Assembly: GCF_002210425.1 (NCBI RefSeq)
Contig: NZ_MWQK01000008.1
Span: forward strand, 1 to 64,000
DNA: 64,000 bases
Direction of reading: 5' to 3'
Origin: Fibrobacter sp. UWB2
GTDB lineage: Bacteria; Fibrobacterota; Fibrobacteria; Fibrobacterales; Fibrobacteraceae
Made by a program: the position numbers and the translations under genes. Numbering within the stretch: position 1 is the first letter of the stretch; each line of letters begins with the position of its first letter. Positions 3,234 to 41,274 of this stretch are shown in pieces. The notes under the pieces were generated by a model. It ran no database searches. It had not been told where the DNA came from and saw nothing but the letters and a program-made list of their open reading frames with translations.

Positions 3234-4109
3234 ATGGGAGCGAACAACGATTTTCAGAAGATTGATCTGAATGATTACATCCAGACGGGCGAAGGCGGGA
3301 CTGCGCTCGCGTATACGCATAGGAACGGCAAATCGCTTGCAAAGTTGTACAATCCGGATTTTGACGCAAATACAATAAAAAATGAATTTTGGGCATCGCG
3401 GACGGCTTTCGAGTTGGGCATTTCTACACCGGAACCGTTTCGTTTGATTACGGAAGGCAAGCGTTTTGGCGGGGAATACGAGCTCATTCAAGGCAAGCGT
3501 TCTTTTTCGCGAATCATTTCGCAGGAGCCCGAACGGCTAGAAGAGATTTCCTTGGAATTTGCCCGCATGGCACGAGAGCTCCACGCAACAAAAGCAGATA
3601 CTTCGCGGCTCAAGTCTTACAAGCAGATGATTACGCAGTTCTATTCCGAAAAGGATTTCGTACCGGAAGACTACAGAAATCGCATCTTGAAATTTTTGGA
3701 TAAAGTTCCAGATACTGAGACTTGCCTCCATGGCGATTTGCAGATTGGCAATGCCATCACCGACGGAAAGAGGACTTTCTGGATTGACTTGGGTGGGTTC
3801 GGATACGGTGCTCCGGAATGGGACCTTGCACTTATGTGGAACTTGGCGCACATGCCAGATGCAGACAAACTAGACTTTCTTTTCCATCTGCCGTCTGAAA
3901 CGATGAAAGCCCACTGGAACATTTTCTTCACGGCCTATCTCGGCACAAATGATCCGCAGTGCATCGAAGAGGCGACACGCCGACTTCCGCTATTTGCCGC
4001 AGCGAAAATTCCGTACATGTTCGGAATAGCGTTCCATAAAAATGTGCCCGAGGAATTTTTCGCTCTTCTCACTCAGATGTTGGACCAGTCAGACACAGGT
4101 AAGGAGTAA
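3234..4109 (+). CDS. APH-like kinase family protein (TIGR02172-type)
   Basis: A 291-residue protein with the aminoglycoside-phosphotransferase/choline-kinase fold. The Brenner-type motif is CLHGDLQIGN (HGD at 166-168, Asn173) and the metal-binding Asp is in WIDLGGFGYG (Asp185), followed by APEWDLAL. It therefore probably phosphorylates a small molecule, or acts as a kinase-like protein, in the cytoplasm. It resembles a paralogous family first defined in Fibrobacter succinogenes (TIGR02172). The start at 3234 is preferred over one 33 bases upstream because GGAG precedes it at seven bases. The GNAT gene follows two bases after its stop, so the pair is an operon. Antibiotic resistance should not be assumed from the fold. 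Confidence 0.8.
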   Translation: MGANNDFQKIDLNDYIQTGEGGTALAYTHRNGKSLAKLYNPDFDANTIKNEFWASRTAFELGISTPEPFRLITEGKRFGGEYELIQGKRSFSRIISQEPERLEEISLEFARMARELHATKADTSRLKSYKQMITQFYSEKDFVPEDYRNRILKFLDKVPDTETCLHGDLQIGNAITDGKRTFWIDLGGFGYGAPEWDLALMWNLAHMPDADKLDFLFHLPSETMKAHWNIFFTAYLGTNDPQCIEEATRRLPLFAAAKIPYMFGIAFHKNVPEEFFALLTQMLDQSDTGKE

Positions 4110-4111
4110 CC

Positions 4112-4741
4112 ATGAAACTCGAATTCGGTTTACAGACTCGCGAAGAACTCGACGAGGCGAGCGCAATTATGGCCAGGGCATACGAGGATTACGACTATGT
4201 CACACTCTATTTCCGTGATGCAGAAAAAAGCCGAAAGGGGGTGCAGATTTTTATGAACTGCGTCCTAAAAGCAAATTATGGAAAAGCAGATTTACTGGCA
4301 GCGCATCGGGACGGTAAGCTGGTTGCCCGCGCAACACTGGAGGCACCCGGCTTCAAGAAACCTTCCGCATTCCAATACATCATACACGGTTTTTGGCGAG
4401 TATACCTTAACACGAAATGGAGCGAAATCAATGGATTCGTGGCCATGGACGAAGGCGCCAGCAAGCCCTGCCACGATTTTCAGAAATCAGGGCCGGACAT
4501 CTGGTATCTCAGCATGCTCGAAGTAGACCCGTCTGCACAGGGGCAGGGCGTCGGTTCGCAATTTTTAACTTATATAGAAGATTATGTACGAGAACGCGGC
4601 GGCAAGCAGTTGGCGCTATTCACAAATTCAAAAGAAAATCTCGCTTTTTACAGCAAGCGAGGATACGAGGTCTTCCACGAATGTGAAATCGAGCACAACG
4701 GCCGAAAAATCGGCAGCTGGAGCATGAAGAAGACGCTATAG
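4112..4741 (+). CDS. GNAT family N-acetyltransferase
   Basis: A 209-residue cytoplasmic acetyltransferase. The acetyl-CoA pyrophosphate loop (motif A) is visible as LEVDPSAQGQGVGSQFL at about 136-152, and the later ALFTNSKENLAFYSKRGYEV is the usual motif B segment. The substrate is unknown. GTAAGGAG lies just before its ATG, inside the end of the upstream kinase-like gene, so the two are co-transcribed and may act on related small molecules. Confidence 0.85.
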   Translation: MKLEFGLQTREELDEASAIMARAYEDYDYVTLYFRDAEKSRKGVQIFMNCVLKANYGKADLLAAHRDGKLVARATLEAPGFKKPSAFQYIIHGFWRVYLNTKWSEINGFVAMDEGASKPCHDFQKSGPDIWYLSMLEVDPSAQGQGVGSQFLTYIEDYVRERGGKQLALFTNSKENLAFYSKRGYEVFHECEIEHNGRKIGSWSMKKTL

Positions 4742-8572: not shown

Positions 8573-9481
8573 TTACCGATACAGGTACGGCAGTTGCCTC
8601 ATATTATTATAGAACGTCGTCATATTTGATTCCTGGCTATCCATCTTGTGGTTCGGATCGTCAATACGGATGCAGCGGATTGGGTAATAATAATCCTGTT
8701 TCAAGAGGACCCCTCTCATGGTTTCCTTAACCCCTTCCTGTTGCTCTTTCGTGTAATGGTTCGGTACAATCACAGTCGGGAATCCATCACTCGTCCAGAC
8801 GACGCTCAGGGAGTCCACAAATTCCATAGAATCCTTCTCGTTATTGTAAAACCCGGACAGGTTCAGTTCAACCGTATCGACCCACCCATAAGTCTCTTCG
8901 TGCAGGCGAGCTCGCAAACGTTTCAAGCCGCTTGGGTCCAAAGAATCCACAACCTTAGTAGGGCTAAATGTCGGCCAATACATCAAATGCCCCTTTGGGG
9001 AGAAAAACAGCCCCGCATTCTGCTCCGCCGAGGCGATTTTCCAGCCCGCAGGACACGCATTGAGTCGCCCTATAGAAGAATAATAGCGCCCTCGTTCGCA
9101 TGTGGAATCCAGGCAGAAACTGCAATGCGTCTTGTATCGCAAATTTTCCAGCATCAAGTGGAAAGTCACGGTATCACCACCCGCCACAAAGCCCGAATCG
9201 TGTTCCGACATGTCGCAGCCAGTATACCCAGCATACTTCAGCACTATATATTCATTGCTGTCGCGCGGGTCCACAAAGGTCTCGAGCTTCTGAAAATAGT
9301 AGCTATCAATATCCTTTTCAGGGCAATGCGCATAATTACGGGGAGGCTTCCACGAAATTTCCACCCTACTAATAAATATGGAGATTACCCCACCAATGAT
9401 TAAGCCGATAGTAAACCACAACAACCACTCGCCTAAAGATGAGCCAAAGATTTTAAATGAAAGGGGTTTAAAGAGTTTCAC
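8573..9481 (-). CDS. Membrane-anchored divergent FISUMP-type protein
   Basis: A 302-residue protein. The GTG at 9481 is chosen as start because GGAGG stands five bases before it; the ATG at 9508 has no ribosome site. Residues about 18-38 form a membrane anchor. The rest recalls the Fibrobacter succinogenes major paralogous domain: FVDPRDSNEYIVLKYAG corresponds to the DxRDxxxY..V.IG opening, and GRYYSSIGRLNACPAGWKIA to the GR.Y....CP.GW segment. The tryptophan-rich end of the usual domain is not obvious, so this is a divergent or partial member. It leads a two-gene operon with 7919-8560. Role unknown; the family is surface-associated. Confidence 0.6.
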   Translation of the reverse strand: MKLFKPLSFKIFGSSLGEWLLWFTIGLIIGGVISIFISRVEISWKPPRNYAHCPEKDIDSYYFQKLETFVDPRDSNEYIVLKYAGYTGCDMSEHDSGFVAGGDTVTFHLMLENLRYKTHCSFCLDSTCERGRYYSSIGRLNACPAGWKIASAEQNAGLFFSPKGHLMYWPTFSPTKVVDSLDPSGLKRLRARLHEETYGWVDTVELNLSGFYNNEKDSMEFVDSLSVVWTSDGFPTVIVPNHYTKEQQEGVKETMRGVLLKQDYYYPIRCIRIDDPNHKMDSQESNMTTFYNNMRQLPYLYR

Positions 9482-9930
9482 GCGAACCTCCAAAGATGCA
9501 TACACCATGATATCGATTCATCACAATCACATGTAAACACGTCAAACAAAAAATTTTTTGAAAAAAGCTCAACTTTTTCAGTTTACTTTTTTACTTTAAC
9601 AGTCGATATATAACACGGCTATGATTTGGACGTCTACATTCTTCAATCTCAAAAGTTTAAAAAACTTTACAAAGAAAGTTTTCGGCTGTCATATTATGAC
9701 ATACCGGTTTGCTATATTTAGGAATATGAGATTGAATAAGATTTTCTCTGTTTGTTTTTCCTGCGCCTCCAACAGCGCAACATCGGTTTTTGCTTCTATA
9801 GGTCCAGCAAACGGCTTGACCAAATAATCAACATTTTCGCAATTCACGCCATAGTCTTTTGATAAAAAGTTATCAAAGGGCGTTTTGCCGTCTTTCCACA
9901 AGAATTTCACCTTCCCAAAGGAGATTGCTC
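9482..9930. other. Intergenic region with a possible gene remnant
   Basis: Mostly AT-rich. On the minus strand 9689-9910 there is a 73-codon frame (GTG start, no ribosome site) encoding FLWKDGKTPFDNFLSKDYG and VDYLVKPFAGPIEAKTDVAL. This reads like protein rather than noise, perhaps the end of an ankyrin-like or other decayed gene. Its 5' end runs into the leader of the sigma-like gene at 9931. Nothing else was recognised. Confidence 0.3.
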
Positions 9931-37808: not shown

Positions 37809-40712
37809 TTAATTCGAGTCCTTGACGCAACGAACGTTATATCCATAGTTCTCACTTTGAAAGTTGCTTATCAACGCATAGTTAGAGTTGTAACGCAAGT
37901 AACTAACATACGCATAATTGTCATTATCCACAGAAGAACTCCAAAAATAAGTTCGTTCTCCTATTGAATTAAAGCTGCGACCACCAGATACATAGCCTGC
38001 CGGCAATGCGGAGAAGCCATAAATATCAGTACCTTTGTAACTGCTGCTTTTCCAATCCGTGGCCGATTTGAGTACTCTCCCCGCATTTGTTGTTCCACCT
38101 ACAGCAACAAACAAGGCGTTCCATTCCGTAGAATCCGGCAAATGCCAACCATCTGGGCAAATTCCCTGAACTTTTGTGGGGAGTTCACAGGTTTTACCGT
38201 AACCACAATTCACGCCATTTCCATCATCATAAAGTTTCACGGAATCGATTGCCGCCGCCCATGTATAAAGACGCCCATACTTGTCACAATTATCCAAGCT
38301 ATTTTCGTAACACCAATTTCGTTTCAACATACTCGGATAATTAATGCTATCTGCGTAGTTTAGGTTTTCCGCCATCCAAGTTTGCTCTCCGATAACAATC
38401 GTTTTGTACATTTGATCGTCACGATCATCGGTTAACGTTCCATATTCAAAAATTGGTGTAAATTCCCAACTACCACTTTTACAAACATAGTACCATTTCG
38501 TAGTTGAATACACGTCCTTATACAAAATAGAAAGTCTTTCATTTTTATCGACACACCCCTTATTGAGTTCTATCTCCAAAGTATTAGCAACCCTGAAAGT
38601 GTCGGCATCACACACATAAAAAGCACCTTCCTTTTGAACTAATTTACCTTCCTGACTTAAGGAACAACTTCCTATAACCGTAAATATTGATGAAATACTA
38701 GCATCATCGTAGCGTGCTGTAATTTCATAGGCCCCCACATCCCGCGGAATATAAATCTTAAGAGTAATTATAGAATCATTATTATAACGGCGAGTCGCTT
38801 CATATTTTAAAGTATCAATAATCTCGTAGTCCTTGCTAAATATCAAATTCAATGCGGAAATATCAAGCCCGGCCTTTTCAAAATTTTTTCCAGCCAAGGT
38901 CGCATTAACATAGCTATCGACATTGTCAATGGACGCATCAGGAATAGAAAAAGATGTAAAATACGGATTCTTATGAACTATGAAGGAATATTTTTTTGTT
39001 CCGTATATTTCACCATCCACAAACAATATCAAATCATAGGTCCCTTCCTTTTGAGGAATTGGAATCCAAGTGGAAACCTTCTGTAAATTTTTACAAGTAT
39101 CACTAAGCCACTGAACAGGAGTCAAATCAACACTTACAGTGTCACCCAGTTGATTCATTTCACCATCCATGACAATGATTTGCACTTTGTTTACAAAATC
39201 AATGTTATATCCTTTCACCCATACAGAGAACGAATCCGTTGTCGCCTTATCTAAGTTAATTCTAGATGGAGTACTTATAGCGATATTATAATACGAATCA
39301 CTTACATTGAATTTTGTGTTCGTATTTTTGAAAACCTGTTCACCAACTTTTAGACGCACCATATATTCTTTACCATTATAGGAATAGCTATCCAATATAG
39401 GAGCTGAAATAGTAGCCCTTATTGTATCCTGCGATATTGCTACAGCCCTGAAATTGATAACAGTATCCTGATTTGAATTCGTCACCTGAATAAAAATACC
39501 TTCACTAGTATCAATGAGCGAAATATCGTTTACAAGAACCGTTGCCAAGATATTTCGATCAGTCGACAATCCCAACACATGGTATCTGTCAAGTGTGATG
39601 GATTTAACATCGAATAAACTCGTTTCATTCGAGTCTTTCACAGAGGAGCAATCTTCTGTAATTTGGGTATTTTCTATCGCCGCCAAAACTACGGAGGAAC
39701 CTGTCGACAAAGCTTTTCCATTTTCATCATATTCTGTAGCTGTAAGTAGTTTATTCCCCTGATATTGTGCGTAATAATGAACAATACTTGAAGATGGATA
39801 ATAAACATAAATTATTTTTATTTCAGTATTAAGAGAATACATCATTTGCGTAGTTGAAGTTACATAACCAGTTTTCGAATAAGTTTTAACATAAGACGAC
39901 TCACCACAATCATTCTCGGTAAAATCTAAATAGGAAACTTGTTTAGAATTCATATTTGCAGCATTGTGATAGCATACATACGATTTGGCAAGATTGTTGC
40001 TTACAAAGAAAAATTTATAATACATATAGAAATAAGGATTTCCCGCTTCTAATTGAGCGTACGATTTAACATCATAAGCAACTCCATCGCTAATTTCCTC
40101 AGTACTCCTTACGAAAACAAACCCATCTTCACCATCTTTTCCATCAACACCGTCCCGACCATCGATGCCATTTTTCCCATCAATACCGTCTTTTCCATCT
40201 TTACCATCTTTACCATCTTTTCCGTCTATACCATCTCGACCATCGTTGCCATTTTTCCCATCAATACCATCTTTTCCATCTTTACCATCAACGCCATCCT
40301 TACCATTGGCTCCATTCAAGCCATCTTTTCCATTAATACCATCTCGACCATCCGCACCATTTTTTCCATCGATGCCATCATGACCATCAATAGTCGTTGC
40401 ATTACTCTCATTATTAACGTTTTTTGCTCCACTAGCAAATAAAGTCCACCCCGAATATGTATAGATGTAAGAACAGCCATCCGTAGTGTTGTAATACACC
40501 CATAAATAAGCAGGATTATAAATTTCTTCTGGTCCAGCAAAGGAACCTGCCCAATAAATGGAAGACGGCCTTTCTACTGCTACTGCAGCCACAGGTTCTG
40601 AAGACGTATCGTCGCCACAAGCGGCAAGAAGAAGCGTGAAAAAGACAGCTATACCAACATTCAGCAAGCCCACCACGAATTCATTTATTTTCGCATTTTG
40701 ATTCAAAGCCAT
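37809..40712 (-). CDS. Collagen-like FISUMP-domain lipoprotein
   Basis: A 967-residue surface lipoprotein. ATG 40712 has GGAG at six bases. The signal peptide ends in the lipobox LLLAAC (lipidated Cys32). Residues 108-197 are 30 uninterrupted Gly-X-Y-type triplets, mostly KDG, IDG, KNG and RDG, a bacterial collagen-like region probably forming a trimeric stalk. About 580 residues of beta-rich, Ig-like repeats follow (for example FKNTNTKFNVSDSYYNIAIS). The C-terminus, from about residue 790, is a full FISUMP domain: TDDRDDQMYKTIVIGEQTWM, AENLNY, CPDGWHLPDSTEWNALF, FWSSS and YNVRCVKD. The family is specific to Fibrobacter and relatives; its function is unknown. An adhesin or wall-binding role is inferred. 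Confidence 0.9.
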   Translation of the reverse strand: MALNQNAKINEFVVGLLNVGIAVFFTLLLAACGDDTSSEPVAAVAVERPSSIYWAGSFAGPEEIYNPAYLWVYYNTTDGCSYIYTYSGWTLFASGAKNVNNESNATTIDGHDGIDGKNGADGRDGINGKDGLNGANGKDGVDGKDGKDGIDGKNGNDGRDGIDGKDGKDGKDGKDGIDGKNGIDGRDGVDGKDGEDGFVFVRSTEEISDGVAYDVKSYAQLEAGNPYFYMYYKFFFVSNNLAKSYVCYHNAANMNSKQVSYLDFTENDCGESSYVKTYSKTGYVTSTTQMMYSLNTEIKIIYVYYPSSSIVHYYAQYQGNKLLTATEYDENGKALSTGSSVVLAAIENTQITEDCSSVKDSNETSLFDVKSITLDRYHVLGLSTDRNILATVLVNDISLIDTSEGIFIQVTNSNQDTVINFRAVAISQDTIRATISAPILDSYSYNGKEYMVRLKVGEQVFKNTNTKFNVSDSYYNIAISTPSRINLDKATTDSFSVWVKGYNIDFVNKVQIIVMDGEMNQLGDTVSVDLTPVQWLSDTCKNLQKVSTWIPIPQKEGTYDLILFVDGEIYGTKKYSFIVHKNPYFTSFSIPDASIDNVDSYVNATLAGKNFEKAGLDISALNLIFSKDYEIIDTLKYEATRRYNNDSIITLKIYIPRDVGAYEITARYDDASISSIFTVIGSCSLSQEGKLVQKEGAFYVCDADTFRVANTLEIELNKGCVDKNERLSILYKDVYSTTKWYYVCKSGSWEFTPIFEYGTLTDDRDDQMYKTIVIGEQTWMAENLNYADSINYPSMLKRNWCYENSLDNCDKYGRLYTWAAAIDSVKLYDDGNGVNCGYGKTCELPTKVQGICPDGWHLPDSTEWNALFVAVGGTTNAGRVLKSATDWKSSSYKGTDIYGFSALPAGYVSGGRSFNSIGERTYFWSSSVDNDNYAYVSYLRYNSNYALISNFQSENYGYNVRCVKDSN
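40122..40391 (-). repeat. Gly-X-Y triplet repeat DNA
   Basis: 30 nine-base units (one Gly triplet each) encoding the collagen-like stalk, with runs such as ACCATCTTT repeated. Repeats of this kind can change length by slippage or recombination. Confidence 0.9.
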
Positions 40713-41274
40713 AACAATCTCCATCAATCAAAAAAACTATAGAGTTTACCCTCATTCGGAAAGCTAACACACGCCCCCAAAGGGCCGTTGCCTTTGACCA
40801 TACAATCAAAGACCGACTCAAAAAGTCGGCATAGCAAACTAAAACACACCGCAATAACGGCATATCTGCGTAAGCGTTTGTCTCGCTCTCATGTATGTGA
40901 GACTTCGAGATTTCGACTAAAGGGCAAGAGCAAAAACTCTTTTTTCAATCAAAAGATAACAATATTTTTCAAATCACCATAGCAAAAAACATCGTTTTTC
41001 ACGTGTTTTCGCATACAATTCAAATTTTCCACCTCCCCAATACTCCAAAATAAATTCACAAAAAAAATGCAAAAAGTTCGTCCGCTGTAAGAAAATTATA
41101 TATATCTATTTATAAATAGGGCGGGAGCAATAATACTCGTCTTTCGACTTATGTAAGAAAAACGTTAGTCCTTTTTGGACTATCGAGATCAATTGTAAAC
41201 CTTGAATTTACAATTTCTTGATAGCTATATTAGCGGCTAATCCATTTGACAAAATCAAAAACAGAGGTACGAAA
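40713..41274. other. Long divergent intergenic region with palindromes
   Basis: No gene found in about 560 bases. Structures: CCGACT-CAAAA-AGTCGG near 40814-40830; nested TCTCG..TCTCA..TGAGA..CGAGA near 40884-40914; AGAG-CAAAAA-CTCT before TTTTTTC near 40927-40945; a perfect palindrome CTATTTATAAATAG (41106-41119); the hairpin AGTCC-TTTTT-GGACT (41167-41181); and the dyad at 41191-41215. It must hold both divergent promoters and may contain a structured leader. Confidence 0.45.
41191..41215. promoter_or_regulatory. Perfect 25-bp dyad before the sugar transporter
   Basis: AATTGTAAA and TTTACAATT separated by CCTTGAA, ending 59 bases before the transporter ATG. The half-sites are those of the nitrogen-block dyad but in the opposite order, so it may bind a different regulator, such as a sugar-responsive repressor. 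Confidence 0.5.

Follow-up and report, generated by a model that had tools for sequence, protein, structure and literature searches.

The outer ~50 residues of the FISUMP (Fib_succ_major) domain are the variable regions of diversity-generating retroelements (DGRs) in sister Fibrobacter genomes, collagen-stalked genes included, and we interpret the 967-residue lipoprotein studied here as a frozen relative of these DGR-diversified, stalk-displayed lectins. Its gene lies at 37809–40712 on the reverse strand of the window, by which we mean the whole 64,000-nucleotide stretch of Fibrobacter sp. UWB2 DNA that was analysed (contig NZ_MWQK01000008.1, positions 1–64,000). Fibrobacter genomes contain very many copies of FISUMP, and its role has so far rested on a guess that it is a cohesin analogue; the retroelements now reduce the likely binding face to about 20 codons and predict variant-specific ligands.

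The open reading frame starts with an ATG at 40712, upstream of which lies a ribosome-binding-like GGAG (40719–40722). The signal peptide predicted from the sequence pattern (residues 1–32; 40617–40712) ends in the lipobox LLLAAC with Cys32 and is followed by GDD. An N-terminal module without a Pfam match (residues 33–109; 40386–40616) leads into the collagen-like region (residues 110–199; 40116–40385), recognised by Pfam Collagen (PF01391; E 2e-13, 50.2 bits against a cut-off of 27.2), and then into a β-rich body of ~560 residues (200–758; 38439–40115), for which searches with Pfam and NCBIfam/TIGR profiles returned no family match. The full-length model, built from a two-row alignment, has a mean pLDDT of 26.6, so the missing fold match for the body is uninformative. 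The FISUMP domain (residues 759–965; 37818–38438) completes the protein and is matched by both TIGR02145 (E 2e-58, 197.9 bits against a cut-off of 41.65) and Pfam Fib_succ_major (PF09603; E 7e-34, 118.2 bits against 33.9); its variable tip, which corresponds to the DGR variable region of the sister genomes, comprises residues 907–956 (37845–37994), all features being on the reverse strand. An earlier, sequence-only reading had described a genuine gene with a lipidated N-terminus, thirty unbroken glycine triplets in which Lys-Asp-Gly is prominent, and a C-terminal FISUMP domain, and on these points it was borne out: there are exactly 30 triplets in succession, with GKD the commonest (9/30). Its description of FISUMP as Fibrobacter-specific was wrong, the domain also being present in the Bacteroides ihuae control and in loci labelled Bacteroidetes. 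Judging from the lipobox, the protein is probably located at the cell surface, and we consider it reasonably probable that it is an outer-membrane lipoprotein which holds FISUMP away from the cell on the collagen-like stalk and β-rich body.

Of 80 Fibrobacter genomes, 18 have reverse transcriptases. Inspection of 20 of the 28 listed reverse-transcriptase places gave 13 loci, in nine of the 80 genomes, in which a reverse transcriptase is accompanied by a template repeat and a FISUMP target. In the 12 loci counted, which supply 13 template/target pairs, 288 of the 300 mismatches fall at a template A, with adenine making up 51–73 of the 181–206 template bases. Such adenine-specific mismatches are the mark of DGRs. 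The 288 mismatches at A are distributed over codon positions 1, 2 and 3 as 179, 102 and 7, placing 281 in the first two, and the templates code for runs of Asn at the variable positions of FISUMP. Not included in this count are the gapped pair of L208 (20/26 at A), a second L192 target (29/40) and a third L201 target (31/42). Four of the FISUMP targets are collagen-stalked: a 956-residue frame with a collagen match above the Pfam cut-off as well as FISUMP (L193; 28/28 mismatches at A), a 907-residue protein (L194; 27/27), and two with Gly-X-Y runs of 8 (L200; 21/22) and of 10 (L208, with the mismatches given above). The collagen-like stalk is now linked to DGR variable proteins, and natural template/target pairs are at hand for testing recognition by FISUMP.

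Several further arrangements were observed among the reverse-transcriptase places. Four loci (L202, L203, L204 and L205) carry an adenine-biased, template-like repeat whose target lacks a FISUMP frame, their mismatches at A being 16/16, 17/17, 19/20 and 17/20, respectively; the 904-residue frame of L203 has no Pfam match. No template repeat was seen near the reverse transcriptase in L206, L209 or L210. At L195 (5943–7256), L207 (5353–6855), L201 (6105–7496) and similar loci, the template immediately precedes the reverse transcriptase within a continuous open frame, so that a FISUMP-tip fragment and the enzyme have a single stop-to-stop frame in common. In L193, a 240-residue frame without a significant family match (3903–4625, reverse strand) is located between the reverse transcriptase and the template, and possibly encodes an accessory factor.

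The DGR templates define 20 mutable codon positions in the FISUMP tip, and we compared substitution at these with the remainder of the domain in 34 independent domain pairs, picked by synonymous divergence; the domains analysed come mostly from loci retrieved through their similarity to the window protein and are not a random sample. The dN/dS ratio is 1.39 at the 20 mutable codons, 0.25 at the other tip codons and 0.23 in the proximal part, with the tip pN exceeding the proximal pN in 26 of the 34 pairs. Nine pairs show a third-base signature and have a dN/dS of 4.42; for the 25 pairs without a recent signature the values are 0.84 versus 0.23, a result which none of 20000 permutations reached. 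A test on 50 pairs gave a higher dN in the tip than in the proximal part in 45, although these pairs were picked on proximal identity, which biases the comparison towards a quiet proximal part. Several other pairs have variable codons that differ in their first two bases with the third kept, neighbouring codons being unchanged, as expected where AAC/AAT codons undergo adenine-specific mutagenesis. A pair of adjacent collagen-stalked genes in L048 differs at 16 mutable codons and keeps the third base in 15. The pairs bearing this signature include genomes without a reverse transcriptase match (L128 in G024, L134 in G009, L140 in G057 and L141 in G055), so it seems that the retroelements acted there and were afterwards lost, or that they were missed.

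The tip is hypervariable in the lineage of the window protein as well. Against its syntenic ortholog (L038), the tip has 62–68% DNA identity and nonsynonymous changes in 27/50 codons, compared with 25/146 in the proximal part (Fisher p 1.4e-6); the enrichment at mutable positions in this single pair is weak (p 0.04). The third base is kept in just 1 of 11 changed mutable codons, so the divergence of the two proteins is not due to recent DGR action. A search of the window's genome with RVT_1, a profile which does find the sister enzymes, detected no reverse transcriptase, and the same genome yielded neither a second copy of the tip nor a match to a sister-genome template. An active DGR in this genome was therefore rejected: the combination of a reverse transcriptase and a template with adenine-specific mismatches, by which a DGR target is recognised, was found in 13 sister loci and not here. 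As neither a reverse transcriptase nor a template copy was found, the window tip is not being rewritten now.

These same results bear on whether the window protein was ever a DGR target. It is quite possible, only a little short of an even chance, that it never was, its tip having diverged through ordinary diversifying selection or exchange among ~60 paralogs, and that DGRs adopted some FISUMP genes later. The missing retroelement and the single conserved third base favour this explanation, as does the occurrence of FISUMP-targeting DGRs in only nine of the 80 genomes (with 20 of the 28 listed reverse-transcriptase places inspected). Against it stands an excess of pyrimidine-ending codons at the mutable positions, as templates of AAY codons predict, to which amino-acid make-up contributes: 16/20 mutable codons of the window protein end in C or T, compared with 106/185 elsewhere (p 0.04), the corresponding figure in L038 is 17/19 (p 0.004), and in 17 FISUMP domains of the window's genome the proportions are 249/334 at mutable codons and 1738/3005 elsewhere (p 1e-9). 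This excess is possibly a weak relic of AAY templates, with amino-acid composition accounting for part of it. Reading the window protein as a frozen relative of DGR targets, the most likely history would be one in which DGRs diversified the FISUMP tips of some lineages, and the tips were then passed on in fixed form once the retroelement had been lost.

Modelling offers a view of the structure on which this variation is borne. An AlphaFold2 model of residues 690–967, from 70 sequences, has a mean pLDDT of 82, with values of about at least 90 over most of FISUMP. In Foldseek the top row for the FISUMP model is the C-terminal domain of Lcl (PDB:8q4e; E 0.09, probability 0.82), and no row has an E below 0.001. 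VIA-align superposes FISUMP on 8q4e, which is 131 residues long, with a Z of 8.3 and an rmsd of 4.9 over 112 aligned residues, and scores PvdO (Z 9.3) and CarF (8.9) as high as Lcl, a Z of 8–9 being about the level which is reached by models without a clear match. Formylglycine-generating enzymes follow Lcl; next are two DGR variable proteins, TaqVP (Z 7.1; rmsd 3.3 over 147 aligned residues) and Mtd (Z 7.0; rmsd 4.1 over 139), and after these come snake-venom and mammalian C-type lectins. We take all of these matches to belong to one C-type-lectin-like superfold. At the sequence level, all four matches of Pfam Lcl_C in the window's genome overlap FISUMP stretches, none of them above cut-off; Lcl_C also matches the FISUMP region of L244, a further collagen and FISUMP protein of this genome (E 1e-4, below cut-off). 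No match was found between the FISUMP profile and PDB sequences. A relationship between DUF1566 and Fib_succ_major by HHsearch is given in the available text of Ye 2014 (PMC4159848). Overall, a C-type-lectin-like fold for FISUMP and a sequence relationship to the C-terminal domain family of Lcl are both supported but not proven.

The sequence-only reading had suggested testing the FISUMP domain for binding to plant-wall polymers; the idea of such fixed binding is weakly motivated in view of the C-type-lectin-like predicted fold and the DGR-variable tip in sister genomes. Its more general form, in which FISUMP binds plant walls in a fixed manner or acts as a cohesin-like scaffold, the stalk simply positions it on the fibre and tip variability reflects relaxed constraint, is in our judgement unlikely. 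The available text of PMC4704652 and PMC3625147 does place TIGR02145 among putative cellulose-binding proteins and suggest that in Fibrobacter it may be a cohesin analog, and the high copy number of FISUMP in a fibre degrader (60 stretches by profile search in the window's genome) suits such a role; nevertheless, retroelements which target the tip (288/300 mismatches at A) and a dN/dS of 1.39 at those codons only, next to codons at 0.25, argue for variability under selection rather than for relaxed constraint or an invariant polymer ligand. A changeable recognition domain is accordingly a likelier description of FISUMP than a module with fixed binding to cellulose. In the recognition model, the lipidated anchor, stalk and body would provide reach and the variable lectin-like tip recognition, with the tip binding a changing ligand which may be a glycan, a phage, or the surface of a neighbour or host. 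Changing ligands such as phages, neighbours, and host or plant glycan variants fit a diversified binding face better than does an invariant polymer.

In the stalk, Lys occupies the X position in 12 of the 30 triplets and Asp the Y position in 23, whilst proline is present at none of the 60 X/Y positions, and the stalk is not rich in imino acids in the sense used for collagen-like proteins. The Fibrobacteraceae stalk is unusually proline-poor, with Pro at 54 of 2712 X/Y positions in 39 collagen-like frames. With proline so scarce in the stalk, formation of a stable triple helix is not assured. If one forms, the stalk would trimerise the tips, giving avidity; it is also conceivable, though on balance doubtful, that the stalk is a flexible, charged and possibly cation-binding linker and the protein a monomeric tether. 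The abundance of Asp at Y positions and the scarcity of proline point towards such a linker, as does the presence of Pro in the Lcl repeat consensus given in the available text of PMC11162425. A linker would not, however, need the unbroken, perfectly phased runs of 30 and 40 triplets found in the window protein and L038, and the Pfam Collagen match is above its cut-off.

The sequence-only reading had also suggested that the repeat could vary in length between strains. L038 has 40 triplets, likewise without interruption, to the window protein's 30, so repeat length varies between close relatives. The DNA of the repeat region has an 81-bp near-duplicate period with 90% matches. L038, the only ortholog found, is on a 7.7 kb contig of a metagenome-assembled genome labelled Bacteroidales; its protein is 81% identical overall, and both loci have a neighbouring MFS sugar-transporter gene (83% DNA identity). 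Identity between the two is uneven, with residues 181–450 (window 39360–40170) mostly at 90–97% in DNA, compared with the transporter at 83% and the FISUMP tip at 62–68%, a mosaic pattern suggestive of recombination or of strong constraint acting on the body.

Collagen stalk and FISUMP together are a recurrent Fibrobacteraceae architecture which is not unique to the window protein. Of 111 Fibrobacteraceae genomes, 92 have collagen matches, and we sampled 33 stretches, around 29 of the top-ranking matches and four other frames of the window's genome, with a collagen-like frame defined as a run of at least 8 triplets. FISUMP is present in 23 of the resulting 39 frames (five of which touch a stretch edge) and absent from 16, and 31 pass a simple lipobox pattern. 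The window's genome contains 7 collagen stretches in 5 frames, three of which include FISUMP (the window gene, L242 and L244). The earlier proposal that the domain is displayed on a lipidated stalk accordingly fits the sequence and recurs in the family, though it missed the nature of the domain.

Collectins also combine a collagen stalk with a C-type-lectin head. Their likeness to the window protein would lie in the stalk and the predicted fold of the head, the latter protein being lipid-anchored and bacterial, with a different stalk chemistry. As a tentative proposal, Fibrobacter may possess a large repertoire of stalk-displayed, trimeric C-type-lectin-like receptors, a bacterial counterpart of the collectins whose binding face would be adaptive, with tips which retroelements rewrite in some lineages and which are fixed in others, and of which the window gene would be a frozen allele. 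Among bacterial proteins, Legionella Lcl, as described in the available text of PMC11162425, is similar in that its N-terminus is anchored and the number of its collagen-like repeats differs between strains, and its C-terminal domain has the C-type-lectin-like fold that is predicted for FISUMP; the additional β body, lipobox, proline-free repeat and DGR-related tip are features of the window protein. The latter scores 28.6 bits against a cut-off of 500 for the Lcl adhesin family (NF046116), of which it is not a member, and 65.4 bits against 325 for the streptococcal Scl adhesins (NF038329), from which it also differs in having a lipobox rather than a C-terminal LPXTG.

That DGRs in gut metagenomes have Fib_succ_major among their target domains is already in print (PMC4159848 and PMC8934634, in their available text). 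The DGR variable proteins with Fib_succ_major/DUF1566 of Ye 2014 (PMC4159848) have in common with the window protein a C-terminal position of the domain, a variable tip and, in one example, a lipoprotein; they are from human-microbiome genes, the available text makes no mention of a collagen stalk, and in the window's genome it is the retroelement that was not found. The available text of PMC4704652 reports 54 TIGR02145/FISUMP copies in F. succinogenes S85, the same domain at high copy in the same genus, interpreted there as cellulose-binding or cohesin-like and here as variable and lectin-like. Literature searches, with subscription papers outside their scope, returned nothing on collagen-stalked FISUMP proteins or on comparable DGRs in Fibrobacter.

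Some more distant relatives were also observed. The window itself encodes a 311-residue protein (8573–9508, reverse strand) in which one stretch weakly resembles FISUMP (E 6e-4), and the same genome contains a collagen-like protein with a histidine-phosphatase match and no FISUMP (L243, 3280–6354). Distant FISUMP-like domains, with 31–32% identity, are present on IMG/VR viral contigs at two loci only (L246 and L247).
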